From assembly GCF_002943565.1 (NCBI RefSeq), contig NZ_PJCH01000017.1, positions 248,001 to 312,000 on the forward strand: 64,000 nucleotides of DNA, written 5' to 3'. Positions 6,179 to 13,449 of this stretch are shown piece after piece. Each line of letters starts with the position of its first letter. Positions within the stretch are counted from its first letter, which is position 1. The stretch is from Hyphococcus luteus (lineage in GTDB: Bacteria; Pseudomonadota; Alphaproteobacteria; Caulobacterales; Parvularculaceae). Below the pieces are notes generated by a model. The model worked only from the letters and a program-made list of their open reading frames with translations. It was not told the DNA's origin and made no database searches. Both the position numbers and the translations under genes were made by a program.

Positions 6179-7450
6179 TTAGGGCCGCGTCTGCCCCGTG
6201 CCGCGCACCAAATTCTTGTAGGTGGTGAGCTCCTCGACGCCCGCCGGCCCCCTTGCATGAAGGCGGCCTGTGGCGATGCCGATTTCCGCGCCGAGACCGA
6301 ATTCGCCGCCGTCCGCGAACTGGGTCGAGGCGTTGTGCATGACGATGGCGCTGTCGACTTCCGTCAGGAAGCGCCGGGCCGTCTCCTCATTTTCGGTGAC
6401 GATGGAGTCCGTGTGGCCGGACCCGTATTTTGCGATGTGGTCAATCGCCCCGGCGACGCCGTCGACAACCGCAACCGACAAAACAGGGGCCAGATATTCC
6501 GTATAAAAATCTTCCTCCGCAGCGGGAACGACCGTCGGGTCGATCTTGCGCAGCGCATTGTCGCCCCGGATCTCGCAGCCCTTTTTACGCAAAGCGTCCA
6601 CAATCGGCGGCCAGGCTTTTTTCGCAACCGCCTCGTCGATGAGCAGCGTCTCCATGGCGCCGCAGACGCCGGTGCGCCGCATCTTCGAATTGACGGCGAT
6701 CTCCACCGCCTTCTCCAGGTCCGCATCGCGGTCCACATAGACATGGCAGACGCCGTCGAGATGGGAGAGCACGGGCGCGCGCGCTTCCTTTTGCACCCGC
6801 GCCACCAGCGACTTGCCGCCGCGGGGAATGAGGAGGTCGATGCGCCCGCCCATCCCCGACAGCAAGGCGCCTACCGCGGCGCGGTCTGTCGTCTCGATGA
6901 AGAGCGCCGCGTCTTCAGGCAGGCCCGCGACGCCGAGCGCGTCATGGAAGCAGTCGTAAAGCGCCTTCGAGGTTTTGATGCATTCCGATCCGCCGCGCAG
7001 GATGACGGCGTTGCCGGCCTTCACCGCAATCGCCGCCGCATCGACGGTCACGTTGGGACGGCTTTCATAGATCATGGCGATGACGCCGATGGGCGTTCTC
7101 ACCCGCTCGATCTCCAGCCCGTTGGGCCGCGGCCATTTCGAGATCGATTTGCCCACGGGATCATCGAGCGCGGCGATGTCTTCGAGCGCCTTGGCGATGC
7201 TTTCGATCCGTTCGGGATTGAGCGTCATGCGGTCGAGAAAGGCTTCTTCCGTCCCGCGCGCTTTGGCGGCGGAAATCTCGGCGGCGTTGATTTCAAGAAT
7301 CTCGCCGGCGCGTTCGCGAACCAGTTCCGCAGCCTTTGTCAGCGCCGCGTTCTTGCGCTCCGTCGGGGCAGAGGCCATGAGGCGCGCGGCGGCCCGCGCC
7401 TTCGCCGCAAGGCCTTCCATGTAATCGTCAAGCGACCCGGCATCGGTCAT
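6179..7450 (-). CDS. proA: Gamma-glutamyl phosphate reductase
   Basis: Reduces gamma-glutamyl phosphate to glutamate semialdehyde with NADPH, the second step of proline synthesis. 423 aa, normal length. An aldehyde-dehydrogenase fold with the catalytic Cys in TGVCGAMETLLIDEAV; other ProA hallmarks are MIYESRPNVTVDAAAIAVKAGN (shown as two adjoining pieces MIYESRPNVTVDAA and AIAVKAGN), LLIPRGGKSLV and HNASTQFADGGEFGLGAEIG. The ATG overlaps the proB stop by one base (TAATG), so translation is coupled. Last gene of the metX-metB-hom-proB-proA run. Confidence 0.96.
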   Translation of the reverse strand: MTDAGSLDDYMEGLAAKARAAARLMASAPTERKNAALTKAAELVRERAGEILEINAAEISAAKARGTEEAFLDRMTLNPERIESIAKALEDIAALDDPVGKSISKWPRPNGLEIERVRTPIGVIAMIYESRPNVTVDAAAIAVKAGNAVILRGGSECIKTSKALYDCFHDALGVAGLPEDAALFIETTDRAAVGALLSGMGGRIDLLIPRGGKSLVARVQKEARAPVLSHLDGVCHVYVDRDADLEKAVEIAVNSKMRRTGVCGAMETLLIDEAVAKKAWPPIVDALRKKGCEIRGDNALRKIDPTVVPAAEEDFYTEYLAPVLSVAVVDGVAGAIDHIAKYGSGHTDSIVTENEETARRFLTEVDSAIVMHNASTQFADGGEFGLGAEIGIATGRLHARGPAGVEELTTYKNLVRGTGQTRP

Positions 7451-8607
7451 TACTCGCTCCTCAAAATGAGATCGTCTTTTTCGACCATGGCCGGGCGGCG
7501 GCGATAGCCGAGCAGCGCCTCGATCCGGTCCGATTTGGCGCCGGCGATTTTGCGCGCGTCGCCCGCATCGAAGGCGATGAGCCCCTGGCCGATAGACTGG
7601 CCGTCAAGCGTGACGATTTCCACCGCATCGCCGCGGGCGAAAGCGCCTTCGACGTCTTTGACGCCTGCAGGAAGCAGACTGGCGCCGTTTTCGAGGGCTT
7701 TCGCGGCGCCGTCGTCGATGACGATGCGGCCCGACGGCTTCAACCGTCCGGCGATCCATTGCCGCCTCGCCCCTTCATGGGTGATCGAGGCGCGGAACAG
7801 CGTCGCCGGCCCGCCGTCGAGCACTGCTTTCAGGGGATGGTCCACGAGCCCCGGCGCGATCACCGTATCGCAGCCCGCGCCGCCGGCGATCTTCGCCGCC
7901 GCCACTTTCGAGGCCATGCCGCCGGAGCCGACGCCGGCGCTCTGATTGACGCCGCCCGCGGCGCGTTCGATCTCGGGCGTGATCGCTTCCACCAGCGGAA
8001 TATGTTTCGCCGACCCGTCTTTTCTCGGATCGGCCGTGTAAAGACCGTCTATGTCCGACAGGATGACGAGGAGATCGCTTTCCACGAGCTGCGCGGCGTG
8101 GGCCGCCAGCCGGTCATTGTCGCCATAGCGGATTTCGCTTGTCGCAATGGTGTCGTTTTCATTGACCAGCGGCAGGGCGCCCAATCCAAGCAGCGTGCGC
8201 AAGGTCGCGCGCGCATTGAGATAACGCCGCCGGTTTTCCGTGTCCTCGAGCGTCAACAGGACCTGCGCGATGGCGATGTCATGGGGCGTGAAGGCCGCCT
8301 GCCAGCCCTGCGCCAGCGCCGCCTGTCCCGCCGCCGAGGCCGCCTGTTTTTCGTCGAGCCGAAGCGCGCCCTTGAGGCCAAGGCGGTTTCGCCCGATCGC
8401 AATGGCGCCGGAGGTCACCACCACAATCTCGACGCCGCCGGCGCGCAATTCCACGATGTCCGCGGCGAGCGTTGAAAGCCAGGCCTCGCGCACGCCGTCG
8501 GGCCCGCACAAAATCGCCGAGCCCACCTTGATGACAAGGCGTTTTGCGGCATGCGCGGCTGCAGACGCGGCGCCCTGCGCCGCGTTCCGGTTCAAATTCG
8601 AAGACAT
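7450..8607 (-). CDS. proB: Glutamate 5-kinase with PUA domain
   Basis: Phosphorylates glutamate with ATP, the feedback-inhibited first step of proline synthesis. 385 aa: amino-acid kinase domain (about residues 22-275; VIKVGSAILC, VVTSGAIAIGRNRLG, LVNENDTIAT, LSDIDGLYTADPR, VGSGGMASKVAAAKIA) followed by a C-terminal PUA domain (about 290-370), the common long bacterial form. It starts 11 nt after hom ends, which places proline synthesis in the same transcription unit as the methionine genes and therefore downstream of the SAM riboswitch. Confidence 0.95.
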   Translation of the reverse strand: MSSNLNRNAAQGAASAAAHAAKRLVIKVGSAILCGPDGVREAWLSTLAADIVELRAGGVEIVVVTSGAIAIGRNRLGLKGALRLDEKQAASAAGQAALAQGWQAAFTPHDIAIAQVLLTLEDTENRRRYLNARATLRTLLGLGALPLVNENDTIATSEIRYGDNDRLAAHAAQLVESDLLVILSDIDGLYTADPRKDGSAKHIPLVEAITPEIERAAGGVNQSAGVGSGGMASKVAAAKIAGGAGCDTVIAPGLVDHPLKAVLDGGPATLFRASITHEGARRQWIAGRLKPSGRIVIDDGAAKALENGASLLPAGVKDVEGAFARGDAVEIVTLDGQSIGQGLIAFDAGDARKIAGAKSDRIEALLGYRRRPAMVEKDDLILRSE

Positions 8608-8618
8608 GGGACTTGTCT

Positions 8619-9650
8619 TTAGCTGAACGTCTGGATGCGGCGCAAAGTCTTTTCGCTGTCCGGCGGCGGCGTCATGGCGATGCGTTCAAGATCGGAGAAG
8701 ATGCTGGCCACCGTCGGGGCGCGCCCGGCGCCTTTCCCCGTGCAGGTGAACTCCTCGCCATTGGTGTTGATGACGCGGACCGCATTGCCCTCGCCGTCAA
8801 CCCCGGCGAGGAACGCATCGTCGTCGACGCGCTCGAAACGCACCCGGGCGGAAATGCCGCCGTCGGGCGATTTTTTCACCGTGGACAATTGCTTCCAGAC
8901 GCCGCCGAGCTTCACGAATTCGTCGGCCCGTTCGGCCGTTAAGGGTTCGATGCGAATCGAATCCTGCGGGAATTCGCGGCCGAACGCTTCATAAGTGAGG
9001 ATCGAGATTTTCGCGCGCGCGTCCTCGCCGGACAAGTCCGCCGTGGGATCGGGTTCGGCGAAACCGGCCTCCTGTGCGGCTTTGACCGCGCCTTCATAAG
9101 AGGCGCCGTCTTTCATGGCGGAGAGAATATAGTTCACCGTGCCATTGAGGATCGCGGTGATGGAGCGCACGTCGCCCGCTTCGCGCGCGCGGCGCACAGT
9201 TTCGACCATGGGCGCGCCGCCGCCGACAGACGGCGAATAGGCGAGCGTCACATTGTTTTGCTGCGCAAGCTTGTGCAGATCGGCGAGATGGCCGGCGATC
9301 GCCTGTTTGTTGGCGGTCACCACATGAACGCCGCGGGCGAGCGCCGCCGCGATGAGCTTCAGCCCCGCCTCGCCGGAAGGCAGCGCATCGATCACCACAT
9401 CCGGCTGTTCGACCAGAAACACATTGGGATCGGAATAGGTGCGCAGGCCACTGAGCCGTTCATGACGCTCCTTGTCCGGGTTATTCACAAGCCCGGCGCA
9501 CAGCGCATAGGCGCCCGTTTCCTCGGCAAGACGCAACGCCGCGCCCTCGCCGATCACGCCAAGTCCCGCCACCGCCACGCGCAAACGCCGGGGCGCGCTT
9601 AATTTTTCACCAACGCTCACAACAACCTTGTCATCTACATCTACGCACAT
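8619..9650 (-). CDS. hom: Homoserine dehydrogenase, short form without ACT domain
   Basis: Reduces aspartate semialdehyde to homoserine, the branch-point precursor of Met and Thr. 343 aa. N-terminal NAD(P)-binding domain (RVAVAGLGVIGEGAALRL, about residues 24-41), then the catalytic domain with GGGAPMVETVRRAREAGDV, LNGTVNYILSAMKDG, AEPDPTADLSGEDARAK. Typical monofunctional enzymes of about 430 aa carry a C-terminal ACT domain for Thr inhibition; that is absent here. The ATG overlaps metB by 10 nt. The tail after residue 260 binds into the catalytic core and shows no separate regulatory domain. Confidence 0.92.
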   Translation of the reverse strand: MCVDVDDKVVVSVGEKLSAPRRLRVAVAGLGVIGEGAALRLAEETGAYALCAGLVNNPDKERHERLSGLRTYSDPNVFLVEQPDVVIDALPSGEAGLKLIAAALARGVHVVTANKQAIAGHLADLHKLAQQNNVTLAYSPSVGGGAPMVETVRRAREAGDVRSITAILNGTVNYILSAMKDGASYEGAVKAAQEAGFAEPDPTADLSGEDARAKISILTYEAFGREFPQDSIRIEPLTAERADEFVKLGGVWKQLSTVKKSPDGGISARVRFERVDDDAFLAGVDGEGNAVRVINTNGEEFTCTGKGAGRAPTVASIFSDLERIAMTPPPDSEKTLRRIQTFS

Positions 9651-10867
9651 TTGCTTGCCGTCCCCTTCGACAGATACGCCACTTTGCCGGCGCCCGCCTT
9701 CCCTGCAACGTCGAGCGCTTGTTCTATGTCTCGCACAAGATCCTCGGCATGCTCAAGCCCGATGGAAAAGCGGACGAGCCGGTCGGAAATGCCCGCCGTT
9801 TCGCGCGCTTCCGGCGTCATCGCCGCATGGGTCATGGTCGCGGGCGTGCACACAAGGCTCTCAAAGCCGCCGAGGGATTCAGCGATGGTAAACAGGTTCA
9901 ACTGGCGCAGAAGCTCGATGACATCGACGCCTTCAGCGAATTCAATCGAGAACATCGAGCCGAAACCCTTTTGCTGCGCTTTCGCGGTCTCGTGACCCGG
10001 ATGGGATTTGAGACCGGGGAAATAAATGTTTTCGATGCGCGCATCGTTCTCGAGATGCGTCACGATTTCACCCGCCGTCGCCTGCTGGCGCTCGATGCGC
10101 GGGAACAAGGTCCTGAGGCCGCGCAGGGTCATAAAGGAATCGAAGGGCGCGCCGGAAACGCCGGTGCAGTTCGCCCACCAGGCGAGATCGTCGCCGAGCG
10201 CCTGATCCCTGGCGACAACGGCGCCGCCGACAACGTCGGAATGGCCGTTGATGAATTTCGTCGTCGAATGCACGACGATGTCGCAGCCGAGATCGAGCGG
10301 ACGCTGCAGCGCCGGCGACAGGAAGGTGTTGTCGGCGGCGACGATGGCGCCGCATTCCTTCGCCAGTTCGACCACCGCGCGAATGTCGGTGATGCGCAGG
10401 AGCGGGTTGGAGGGCGTTTCAACGAGCACCAGTTTCGGTTTGCGCGCAAAAGCTTTTGCGAGCTCTTCCGGATCGGTCTGGTTTGCGTAGACAAGCTCGA
10501 ACTGGCTGCGCTTGGCGCGCGCCGTCAGAAGCCGGTGCGTGCCGCCGTAACAATCGTGCGGCGCGATCACCACTTCGCCCGGATCGACAAGATTCAGGAG
10601 AAGGTCGAGCGCCGCCATGCCGGAGGAGACGACAACGCCGCGGGCGCCGCCTTCGAGCTGCGCGAGCGCGTCTTCAAGCTGCGTGCGCGACGGGTTGCCG
10701 GAGCGCGCATAGTCGTATTGCGGCTTTTCCAACGGGTCGCGCCAGGCGTAGTTCGCCGATAGATGGATCGGCGGCGACACCGAGTTGAACGCCGGATCAT
10801 CGGCGACGCCCGCCGTCGCGATCAGAGTTTCAGGGCGCAGGGCGTCAGTGTGCTGAGCGTCGCTCAT
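9641..10867 (-). CDS. metB: Cystathionine gamma-synthase
   Basis: PLP enzyme that replaces the acyl group of O-acylhomoserine with cysteine to give cystathionine. 408 aa. Family features resembling enterobacterial MetB: APHDCYGGTHRLL, ETPSNPLLRITDI, VAADNTFLSPALQRPLDLG and the PLP-lysine motif VVHSTTKFINGHSDVVGG, then AWWANCTGVSGAPFDS. The ATG overlaps the metX stop by 4 nt. It could act partly as an O-acylhomoserine sulfhydrylase, but the AWWAN/PFDS segment favours MetB. Confidence 0.88.
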   Translation of the reverse strand: MSDAQHTDALRPETLIATAGVADDPAFNSVSPPIHLSANYAWRDPLEKPQYDYARSGNPSRTQLEDALAQLEGGARGVVVSSGMAALDLLLNLVDPGEVVIAPHDCYGGTHRLLTARAKRSQFELVYANQTDPEELAKAFARKPKLVLVETPSNPLLRITDIRAVVELAKECGAIVAADNTFLSPALQRPLDLGCDIVVHSTTKFINGHSDVVGGAVVARDQALGDDLAWWANCTGVSGAPFDSFMTLRGLRTLFPRIERQQATAGEIVTHLENDARIENIYFPGLKSHPGHETAKAQQKGFGSMFSIEFAEGVDVIELLRQLNLFTIAESLGGFESLVCTPATMTHAAMTPEARETAGISDRLVRFSIGLEHAEDLVRDIEQALDVAGKAGAGKVAYLSKGTASKCA

Positions 10868-11856
10868 GATGTTTTCTCCTCGAGGAATTCTTTGATGTGC
10901 GGGCCGATGACAGCCGTTTCCTTCAAAAACGCGTCATGGCCGTAAAGAGACGGAACCTTGATCAAGCGTGCGCCGTCGACGGCGCCGGCGAGACGCTCCA
11001 GATCGGCGAGCGGCGCCAGCCGGTCGGTTTCCGCGGCGATGATGAGGCTGTCGGCGGAAATCTTCGCCGGGTCGGCGCGATGACGGTCGATGGAGTCCGA
11101 CAACGTCACATAGCGGCGCGCATCCATGCCGTAGGCGTCGCCGCGCGCGATCAGATAGTCGCAGATGTCGTAAGGGTCGCCCGCCGCGGCGCCGGGGGCG
11201 CTTTCAAAGCGCGCCCCGAATTCCTCGGGCGTTCTGTAGGTGATCATGCCGATCTGGCGGGCGAGCGCGACGCCGCCTTCGCCGTCGCCGTGCTTCAGGG
11301 CGAAATCGATGATCCGCCGCTGCACGCCGCGCAGGGCCGTGGCGGAAGGGTGCGGCCGGTCGGGCGCGGAAATCGCGCACAGCTTTTCGATGCGGTCCGG
11401 GAAAAGTTCGGCGAAGACGAGACCGATCATCCCGCCATAGGAGGCGCCCACAAAGCCGTGGAGTTTTTCGATATTGAGGGTGTCGAGAGCGTCGGCGAGC
11501 GCGCGGGCGTGATCGCGCGTCGTCACCGTTTTCGCCGCCTCGCCGGCGTTCGGCAGAAAGTCGAACCCGATGACGCAGTACCGGTCGAGATCGATGAAGC
11601 CGCCGGGCGAAACCATGTCGCGCCACCAGCCCTCGCCGTCCTTGCAAGTCGCAACGACGCGGCCCGCGGAAATGCCGCCGGCGACGGCGATGGCCGGCTT
11701 TTCAAGATCGCCGTAAACGCGGACTTTCAGCTCCGGGCGGCTCAAGCTTTCGCCGCTGTCCAGAATGAAATCCGAAGGCAGAAACACGGTGACGTCACAG
11801 AAAGGCTGAGACTTCAGCCCCTCTTTGCCGGTCCGTTCTTCTGTCGCTGCTGACAT
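10864..11856 (-). CDS. metX: Homoserine O-acyltransferase (MetX family)
   Basis: Alpha/beta-hydrolase-fold enzyme that acylates homoserine. 330 aa from the ATG at 11856, selected over an upstream in-frame TTG (11886) because GGAGAGAC lies at proper spacing. The nucleophile elbow is GFVGASYGGMIGLVFAELFP with Ser in GASYGG; the His of the triad is in SLYGHDAFLKE and Asp in AAETDRLAPL. The elbow departs from the common GGSMGGMQ of acetyltransferases, so the acyl donor (acetyl- or succinyl-CoA) cannot be assigned from sequence. First gene of the met/pro unit and the direct target of the SAM-I switch. Confidence 0.87.
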   Translation of the reverse strand: MSAATEERTGKEGLKSQPFCDVTVFLPSDFILDSGESLSRPELKVRVYGDLEKPAIAVAGGISAGRVVATCKDGEGWWRDMVSPGGFIDLDRYCVIGFDFLPNAGEAAKTVTTRDHARALADALDTLNIEKLHGFVGASYGGMIGLVFAELFPDRIEKLCAISAPDRPHPSATALRGVQRRIIDFALKHGDGEGGVALARQIGMITYRTPEEFGARFESAPGAAAGDPYDICDYLIARGDAYGMDARRYVTLSDSIDRHRADPAKISADSLIIAAETDRLAPLADLERLAGAVDGARLIKVPSLYGHDAFLKETAVIGPHIKEFLEEKTS

Positions 11857-11861
11857 GCCTA

Positions 11862-11946
11862 GTCTCTCCGCGTCAAACCCGTTCAACTCGATCAGGAAAT
11901 TCGCTTGAGAGACCTCATCGGACGATCATCGTCGGTCGTCGTCCGA
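11862..11946 (-). promoter_or_regulatory. metX: Expression platform of the SAM riboswitch (anti-SD region)
   Basis: Immediately after the aptamer a perfect 8-bp inverted repeat TCGGACGA / TCGTCCGA (11918-11946) can form. The segment GTCTCTC (11907-11913) is complementary both to GAGAGA at the aptamer 3' edge (11951-11956) and to the metX Shine-Dalgarno GGAGAGAC (11862-11869). No T run is present, so translational rather than termination control is inferred: aptamer folding would release GTCTCTC to mask the SD. Confidence 0.55.
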
Positions 11947-12067
11947 CTCATCTCTCGGGAAGAAAGAAACCTTCCCGCAGGAATTGGCACCTTTCCTAAA
12001 AGCCGGTCAGGCTTTTCGGCGGTTGCCCCAGCGTCAACGGGCCTATCCCTCAGCTGGTCTTGATGAG
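11947..12067 (-). promoter_or_regulatory. SAM-I (S-box) riboswitch aptamer
   Basis: The minus-strand transcript shows the S-box core in order: P1 CTCATC, AAGA, CTGAGGGA, GGCCCGTTGACGC, GGGGCAACC, GGTGCCAATTCCTGC, a short P4 hairpin (GGGAAGG...TTCCC), GAGA and P1' GATGAG. Spacing and conserved blocks fit SAM-I, not SAM-II or SAM-IV. It sits directly upstream of metX and about 3-4 nt after the predicted transcription start, which is the expected place. SAM binding should lower expression of metX-metB-hom and probably proBA. Confidence 0.92.
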
Positions 12068-12076
12068 TTGATCAGG

Positions 12077-12105
12077 GTGATACTTTGCGCCCGCGGCGCC
12101 GTCAA
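12077..12105 (-). promoter_or_regulatory. Sigma70-type promoter of the met operon
   Basis: TTGACG (12100-12105), 17-nt spacer, TATCAC (12077-12082). The predicted start around 12070 lies just before riboswitch P1, which independently supports the call. Confidence 0.7.
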
Positions 12106-12177: not shown

Positions 12178-13449
12178 TCACCGCTCCGGCGTCTCCCATT
12201 CGGCGGGCGGGACATGGCGGCGCTGCAGCCGGATGGCGAGGCCGAGCGAGACGCCCACCCCGATGGCGATGGTGAGGTCCGTGGCGACGGTAAGAACCAG
12301 GGTCGTGACCAGAAGCGCGCGGTCCGACAGCCGCCCTTCGAGAAAGTGGGCCTTCCATTTATGCGGCTCGCTCATGTTCCAGGCGGTGATCATCAACAGC
12401 CCGGCGAGCGCCGGCATGGCGAGATAGCCGGCGAGCGGCGCGGCGATGAGCATGACGATCAAAATCGTCAGCGCATGGACGATCCCCGCCATCGGGGTCT
12501 TGCCCCCGGCCCTGATATTCGTCGCCGTGCGCGCAATGGCGCCGGTCGCGGGCAGGCCGCCGAAAAGCGCCGAGCCGACATTGGCCGCGCCCTGCGCCAG
12601 CACCTCCGCATTGGGACGGTGCCTTCCGTCGCCGCTCATCTTGTCGGCGACCATGGCGGAAAGCAGCGATTCAACGCCCGCCAGAAAGGCGATGACGAAA
12701 GCCGACGGCAGGAGCTCGAGCACCCGCTCATAAGACGTAAACGCCGGCAAGGACGGCGCCGGCAAATGGTTCGGCAAGTCGCCGAAGCGCGAGGCGATCG
12801 TATCCACCGGCCCCCCCATGATCGCGGCCGCCGCCGAGGTCGCCGCGACAGCGACGATGAGGCCTGGCAATTTCGGCGCGAGGCGGCGCAACAGGACGAT
12901 GCACGCAATTGTCGCCGCGCCCAGACCGAAAGCCGCGGGACTGAAGCTCGCTCTCGCTTGCCACAGGACAGGCAGTTTCTCGAAAAACGCCGCGGGAAGG
13001 TGATCGGCGGAAAGCCCAAAGAGGTCCTTGACCTGGCTGAAGGCGATCAGGACGGCGATGCCGATAGTGAAGCCGTTGACCACCGCCTCAGGCACGAAGG
13101 CGATCAGCCGGCCGGCGCGCAAAACCCCCGAGACCAGAAGGATGATCCCGGCCATGAAGGTCGCGAGCACCAGCCCGTCATAGCCGTGATTGGCGATGAC
13201 GTCGTAGACGACGACGATGAAGGCGCCGGTCGGTCCGCCGATCTGGAACCGGCTGCCGCCGAGCGCCGAAATCAGAAAGCCGCCGATGATCGCTGTGACG
13301 ATCCCCTTTTCGGGGCTCGCGCCCGACGCAATCGCGATGGCGAGGCTCAGGGGCATCGCCACCATGGCGACGGTGACGCCGGCAAAGAGGTCGCCCCAAA
13401 AAAGCTTCAGCGAGTAGTTTTCAAGGGTCGTCAGTAGTTTGGGCTTCAT
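12178..13449 (-). CDS. SulP-family anion permease lacking a STAS domain
   Basis: Inner-membrane SLC26/SulP transporter, 423 aa, about 10-14 membrane segments. SulP features: DLFAGVTVAMVAMPLSLAIAIASG near residues 20-43 (read as DLFAGVTVAMVAMPLSLAI), GSRFQIGGPTGAFIVVV, VNGFTIGIAVLIAFSQ, AGVESLLSAMVADKMSG and GGLPATGAIARTATNIRAG. The substrate could be sulfate, bicarbonate or another anion; sequence alone does not decide. Most bacterial members continue with a cytoplasmic STAS domain to about 550 aa; here the frame stops after the last membrane helix and nothing STAS-like follows. A small GGGCG/CGCCC hairpin overlaps the stop. It follows an AraC gene by 18 nt. Confidence 0.88.
   Translation of the reverse strand: MKPKLLTTLENYSLKLFWGDLFAGVTVAMVAMPLSLAIAIASGASPEKGIVTAIIGGFLISALGGSRFQIGGPTGAFIVVVYDVIANHGYDGLVLATFMAGIILLVSGVLRAGRLIAFVPEAVVNGFTIGIAVLIAFSQVKDLFGLSADHLPAAFFEKLPVLWQARASFSPAAFGLGAATIACIVLLRRLAPKLPGLIVAVAATSAAAAIMGGPVDTIASRFGDLPNHLPAPSLPAFTSYERVLELLPSAFVIAFLAGVESLLSAMVADKMSGDGRHRPNAEVLAQGAANVGSALFGGLPATGAIARTATNIRAGGKTPMAGIVHALTILIVMLIAAPLAGYLAMPALAGLLMITAWNMSEPHKWKAHFLEGRLSDRALLVTTLVLTVATDLTIAIGVGVSLGLAIRLQRRHVPPAEWETPER

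Follow-up and report, generated by a model that had tools for sequence, protein, structure and literature searches.

A SAM-I leader with a predicted translational switch before metX-metB-hom in Hyphococcus luteus, and its likely exchange for SAM-II within the family

Introduction

Most S box (SAM-I) riboswitches of Firmicutes stop transcription by means of an intrinsic terminator. The leader of metX in Hyphococcus luteus shares with them the aptamer and a competition between strands that is based on P1, but it lacks an intrinsic terminator. In Xanthomonas campestris, control by SAM-I at the level of translation has been proven for an equivalent operon (PMC7270179, PMC6230763), reported there as metA-metB-hom (PMC6230763). 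The likeness between SAM-I_Xcc and the Hyphococcus luteus locus takes in the aptamer class, the homoserine acyltransferase-metB-hom operon, a similar leader length and a platform that sequesters the Shine-Dalgarno sequence. The Xanthomonas campestris riboswitch, the best-studied relative, keeps its Shine-Dalgarno closed in vitro without SAM; opening by initiator tRNA has been reported (PMC7270179).

Xanthomonas-like genomes of the sample (family code f196, probably Xanthomonadaceae) have a MetX of the same subfamily, but their platforms differ in sequence and layout. As judged by eye, the 3′ strand of P1 pairs in these leaders with a directly adjacent GAACCAU and the AUG is hidden, whereas the Hyphococcus luteus leader uses a GGUCUCU segment to which P1 is linked by a hairpin. 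SAM-II (SAM_alpha, RF00521) has the same ligand as SAM-I and, in sister genera of the Hyphococcus luteus family, stands before the same operon, but its fold is unrelated. It was SAM_alpha, not SAM-I, that Leyn et al. treated in Proteobacteria (PMC4239095). The leader described here adds a well-supported translational SAM-I element, with a platform of its own, to a bacterial class in which SAM-I has been described as nearly absent.

The aptamer and its operon

A preliminary description of this DNA, made from its letters, had proposed a SAM-I aptamer before metX and a covariance search to check it. That search (cmscan) recovered RF00162 (SAM) over its full model length, 1-108, and far above the gathering score of 44.4 bits, which confirms the identity (Table 1). 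RF00162 is the sole Rfam family above threshold in the window, by which is meant the whole 64-kb stretch analysed. SAM-II as the identity of the metX leader is ruled out, with no match to RF00521 in the window or in the Hyphococcus luteus genome.

The riboswitch lies upstream of the methionine genes metX-metB-hom on the same strand, and metX starts 88 nt downstream of the aptamer. On the other side, just upstream and also on the same strand, is a gene for a SulP-family anion transporter (12178-13449; a Sulfate_transp match, without a separate STAS hit). At ~30-40 nt upstream of P1, TTGAC is present in 31/31 homologous leaders. A strict sigma-70 scan did not flag the TTGACG of the window as a −35 element, but its retention in every leader suggests that the transcript starts at the aptamer, probably just upstream of P1 where the −35/−10 pair would place it. 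At the other end of the operon, proB-proA begin 11 nt after hom and are probably on the metX-metB-hom transcript. Given that short gap, the proline genes of this genome may also fall under SAM control.

Table 1. Features of the metX leader and operon in the window (all on the minus strand)
Feature	Position	Strand	Basis
SAM-I aptamer, P1-P4, predicted SAM binding	11945..12069	-	RF00162 85.8 bits, E 6.8e-19
P1 5′ strand AACUCAUC	12062..12069	-	cmscan alignment
P1 3′ strand GAUGAGUC, common to antisequestor	11945..11952	-	cmscan alignment; (near-)invariant in 31 leaders
Probable −35 hexamer TTGACG	12100..12105	-	TTGAC at similar distance 5′ of P1, 31/31 leaders
Probable −10 hexamer TATCAC	12077..12082	-	17-nt spacer to −35
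Antisequestor 5′ strand CGAGAGAU, foot of P4 and start of P1 3′ strand	11950..11957	-	RNAalifold consensus, 31 leaders
Short hairpin GUCGGACGA...UCGUCCGAU, links P1 3′ strand to switch segment	11917..11947	-	covarying pairs
Switch segment GGUCUCUCAAGCG, anti-SD or antisequestor 3′ strand	11902..11914	-	GGUCU invariant, 31 leaders
metX Shine-Dalgarno region CGCGGAGAGACU, partner of switch segment	11861..11872	-	GUCUCUC:GAGAGAC + GCG:CGC
metX, homoserine O-succinyltransferase type (PRK08775)	10864..11856	-	NF006449 316.7 bits, cut-off 296
metB, cystathionine gamma-synthase	9641..10867	-	TIGR02080 536.4 bits, cut-off 504.55; 4-nt overlap with metX
hom, homoserine dehydrogenase	8619..9650	-	NF004976 214.2 bits, cut-off 205; overlaps metB
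proB (7450-8607) and proA (6179-7450)	6179..8607	-	TIGR01027, NF001221 above cut-off

Alternative pairings in the leader

The Shine-Dalgarno sequence of metX, GGAGAGAC, is at 11869-11862 and the ATG at 11856-11854. The preliminary description had held that a single GUCUCUC can pair either with GAGAGA at the edge of the aptamer or with this Shine-Dalgarno, and the strands it named (GUCUCUC 11913-11907, GAGAGA 11956-11951) are exact in the sequence. GUCUCUC is fully complementary to GAGAGAC (11868-11862), and the anti-Shine-Dalgarno/Shine-Dalgarno duplex of the window, at −14.7 kcal/mol, compares with −8.7 +/- 2.4 for shuffled Shine-Dalgarno regions, 2% of which are as good.

Both alternatives are conserved. 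A MAFFT alignment of 31 homologous leaders, all of this one family, shows in nearly all of them the 3′ strand of P1 followed by a short hairpin and the invariant GGUCU segment, and the segment GGUCUCU..GCG is kept complementary to two alternative partners, the metX Shine-Dalgarno and the 3′ side of P1/P4. RNAalifold, unprompted, pairs CGAGAGAU with GUCUCU (11908-11913 in the window) and with the later GCG. The antisequestor helix is 98.4% paired across the 31 leaders; for the antisequestor structure, 89.9% of cells are paired and there are nine changes on both sides, values reached in 0/500 shuffles, while versions slid along the alignment attain <=50%. The linking hairpin covaries too, GGACGA/UCGUCC being replaced by GAACGA/UCGUUC in four leaders.

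For the Shine-Dalgarno helix, column-based covariation in the same MAFFT alignment is not above that of shuffles, probably because insertions shift rows out of register. One such insertion, the CAA after GGUCUCU in the window, is matched by an altered Shine-Dalgarno arm when the two are compared by eye (GUCUCUC:GAGAGAC + GCG:CGC). An alignment-free swap test, in which each segment was paired both with the Shine-Dalgarno region of its own leader and with regions swapped in from other species, gave a mean of −15.4 kcal/mol for own pairs vs −13.9 for swapped ones, with 1/20,000 permutations as good. The duplex is at or below the 2% level of shuffled Shine-Dalgarnos in 24/31 leaders. Pairing of the Shine-Dalgarno, exclusive of the aptamer-linked pairing, is therefore a conserved feature with exceptions in about 7/31 leaders; in four (L003, L006, L008, L010) the Shine-Dalgarno is closed by a nearer segment and not by the conserved one. 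The blocking pairing of the preliminary description is kept in most homologous leaders, and its mutually exclusive states stand. Of the two outcomes that it had named as refuting, a poor covariance score and a pairing that is not conserved, neither was observed.

Between the anti-Shine-Dalgarno and the Shine-Dalgarno (11875-11901 in the window, and in its 30 relatives) is a loop, GNGAAUUNCYUGNUGAGCGACG, which is conserved yet unpaired in the model. The switch model does not account for it.

Folding and mode of control

Between aptamer and metX there is no terminator-like site, in agreement with the preliminary description; the only two matches precede the leader and lie where the gene before it ends. 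The absence of a terminator, together with the two conserved and exclusive pairings, makes a translational OFF switch the best model. SAM binding would lock P1, and the 3′ side of P1/P4 could then not hold GGUCUCU(CAA)GCG. Once free, this segment would pair with the metX Shine-Dalgarno and block ribosome loading. If SAM is absent, the nascent RNA would tend to pair CGAGAGAU with GUCUCU as an antisequestor that stacks on the short hairpin, and to do so before the Shine-Dalgarno is transcribed; with the antisequestor formed first, the Shine-Dalgarno would be left free.

The off-switch of the preliminary description holds up in that its pairings exclude each other and no terminator is present, but at equilibrium the Shine-Dalgarno of most leaders stays closed with or without P1. 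Folding of the whole leader with and without P1, the check proposed there, gave for the window a mean Shine-Dalgarno openness of 0.13 with P1 forced and also 0.13 with P1 forbidden. Blocking P1 opened the Shine-Dalgarno by >0.1 in only 7/31 leaders. That the state of P1 has so little effect is because the Shine-Dalgarno hairpin is stable by itself, and simple switching at equilibrium is unsupported in most leaders. The closed state in most leaders without P1 suggests instead that the switch acts during RNA synthesis. Modelling of nascent RNA that ends after the switch segment has the antisequestor beating P1 in 25/31 leaders, by a mean margin of −1.5 kcal/mol over all leaders and −1.1 in the window; in the full leader of the window the two are equal. 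Binding of SAM to P1 could therefore tip the balance ahead of transcription of the Shine-Dalgarno. A kinetic, co-transcriptional switching step is thus probable on these folding models. SAM binding, the direction of control and its kinetic character are predictions, and repression of metX-metB-hom translation at high SAM by a SAM-I riboswitch is, with considerable confidence, the preferred reading.

The same closure at equilibrium also bears on other readings. Untranslated RNA downstream of a closed Shine-Dalgarno would be exposed to Rho, and a partial transcriptional effect is seen in Xanthomonas as well (PMC6230763), so that SAM-I could act mainly on transcription, for instance through termination by Rho within the untranslated leader, masking of the Shine-Dalgarno being the trigger or a side effect. 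This is unlikely: the leader is without an intrinsic terminator, and what is conserved is the Shine-Dalgarno pairing itself. Closure without SAM in folding, as in Xanthomonas (PMC7270179), and the conserved unpaired loop would both fit a platform that needs a second signal for opening, by analogy with the binding of uncharged initiator tRNA to the Xanthomonas anti-Shine-Dalgarno. However, the platform sequence is unlike that of Xanthomonas-type leaders, and complementarity of the loop to the initiator tRNA of its own genome is not above that of shuffles (mean z −0.46), which rejects simple pairing of the two, although the contact in Xanthomonas is likewise of another kind. Such a second signal is rather more improbable than control of transcription. 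A decayed or non-functional aptamer retained by descent can practically be dismissed, given the full-length 85.8-bit match, the covarying pairs, and a platform and promoter element conserved in 31 genomes.

Distribution of SAM-I leaders

The element is above cut-off in 31/62 genomes of the family, all within two genera. The closest relatives that have names are three alphaproteobacterial MAGs, among them one called Parvularcula sp. The preliminary description had considered SAM-I notable in alphaproteobacteria. It is indeed rare, being found in 8/385 genomes of the class, but it is not unprecedented, having been reported there already in 2007 (PMC2258182).

Among 398 genomes sampled across the phylum, MetX is above the NF006449 cut-off in 12, and in 12/12 of these RF00162 is immediately upstream of metX, vs 83/398 genomes with RF00162 anywhere. 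The order is metX then metB wherever longer stretches were read, with hom next in the order-mate and gamma-type loci (L116, L114, L115). From its place 5′ of every such metX and the common gene order, the SAM-I leader is part of a shared metX-metB-hom cassette, common to alpha- and gammaproteobacteria.

In two sister-genus genomes (G001, G006) the operon is split, and its halves, metX-hom and metB, are preceded by separate SAM-I elements (L040 2240-2379, L041 2055-2200; also L042 and L043). In f188, a large family with small genomes, most sampled members have SAM-I, there not linked to the NF006449-type metX subfamily.

SAM-II at the same operon

In other genera of the family, and in G029, a genome from the same genus, orthologous metX genes (38-50% identical) have a SAM-II match upstream. 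The matches, in eleven genomes, are on the same strand roughly 160-285 nt upstream of metX; 5/11 are above gathering and 6/11 below it, at 26.8-33.9 bits. In a twelfth genome (G051), the position where SAM-II would be expected gives only a trace, of 21.5 bits.

The MetX tree unites the eleven SAM-II genes in a single clade (100/99), which adjoins the alphaproteobacterial SAM-I genes, and the gammaproteobacterial SAM-I genes are outside this grouping. The SAM-I/SAM-II label requires one change on the tree vs 8-11 in five shuffles, and an AU test rejects the grouping of all SAM-I genes apart from SAM-II genes and outgroup (p 0.0035). The simplest reading is a single exchange of riboswitch in place, most likely SAM-I to SAM-II, on a tree whose root rests on distant outgroups and which has some long branches. 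In both alpha- and gammaproteobacteria SAM-I is tied to one metX subfamily, and a nested clade has SAM-II at that site. One swap in place of unrelated SAM classes before orthologous metX-metB is, on balance, the favoured account of this family; transfer of the whole operon is a possible alternative.

The SAM-I switch itself is ordinary, and the replacement of its class is of moderate interest. One operon that has SAM-I or SAM-II depending on the genus, all within one family, is a natural experiment on the replacement of RNA classes, and the contrast bears on whether exchange is driven by affinity for the ligand or by the level at which control is exerted. Open-licence papers yielded no account of SAM-I/SAM-II replacement and nothing on riboswitches in Parvularcula; exchange of riboswitch class on one operon was not found described and appears to be new.

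SAM-II also occurs, above cut-off, before what looks by eye to be an aspartokinase-like ORF (L117 95-170, G045:C77). The genome concerned, a MAG, has SAM-I on another contig. If this is not contamination, it is a case of one species with both SAM-I and SAM-II, contrary to the 2007 survey.
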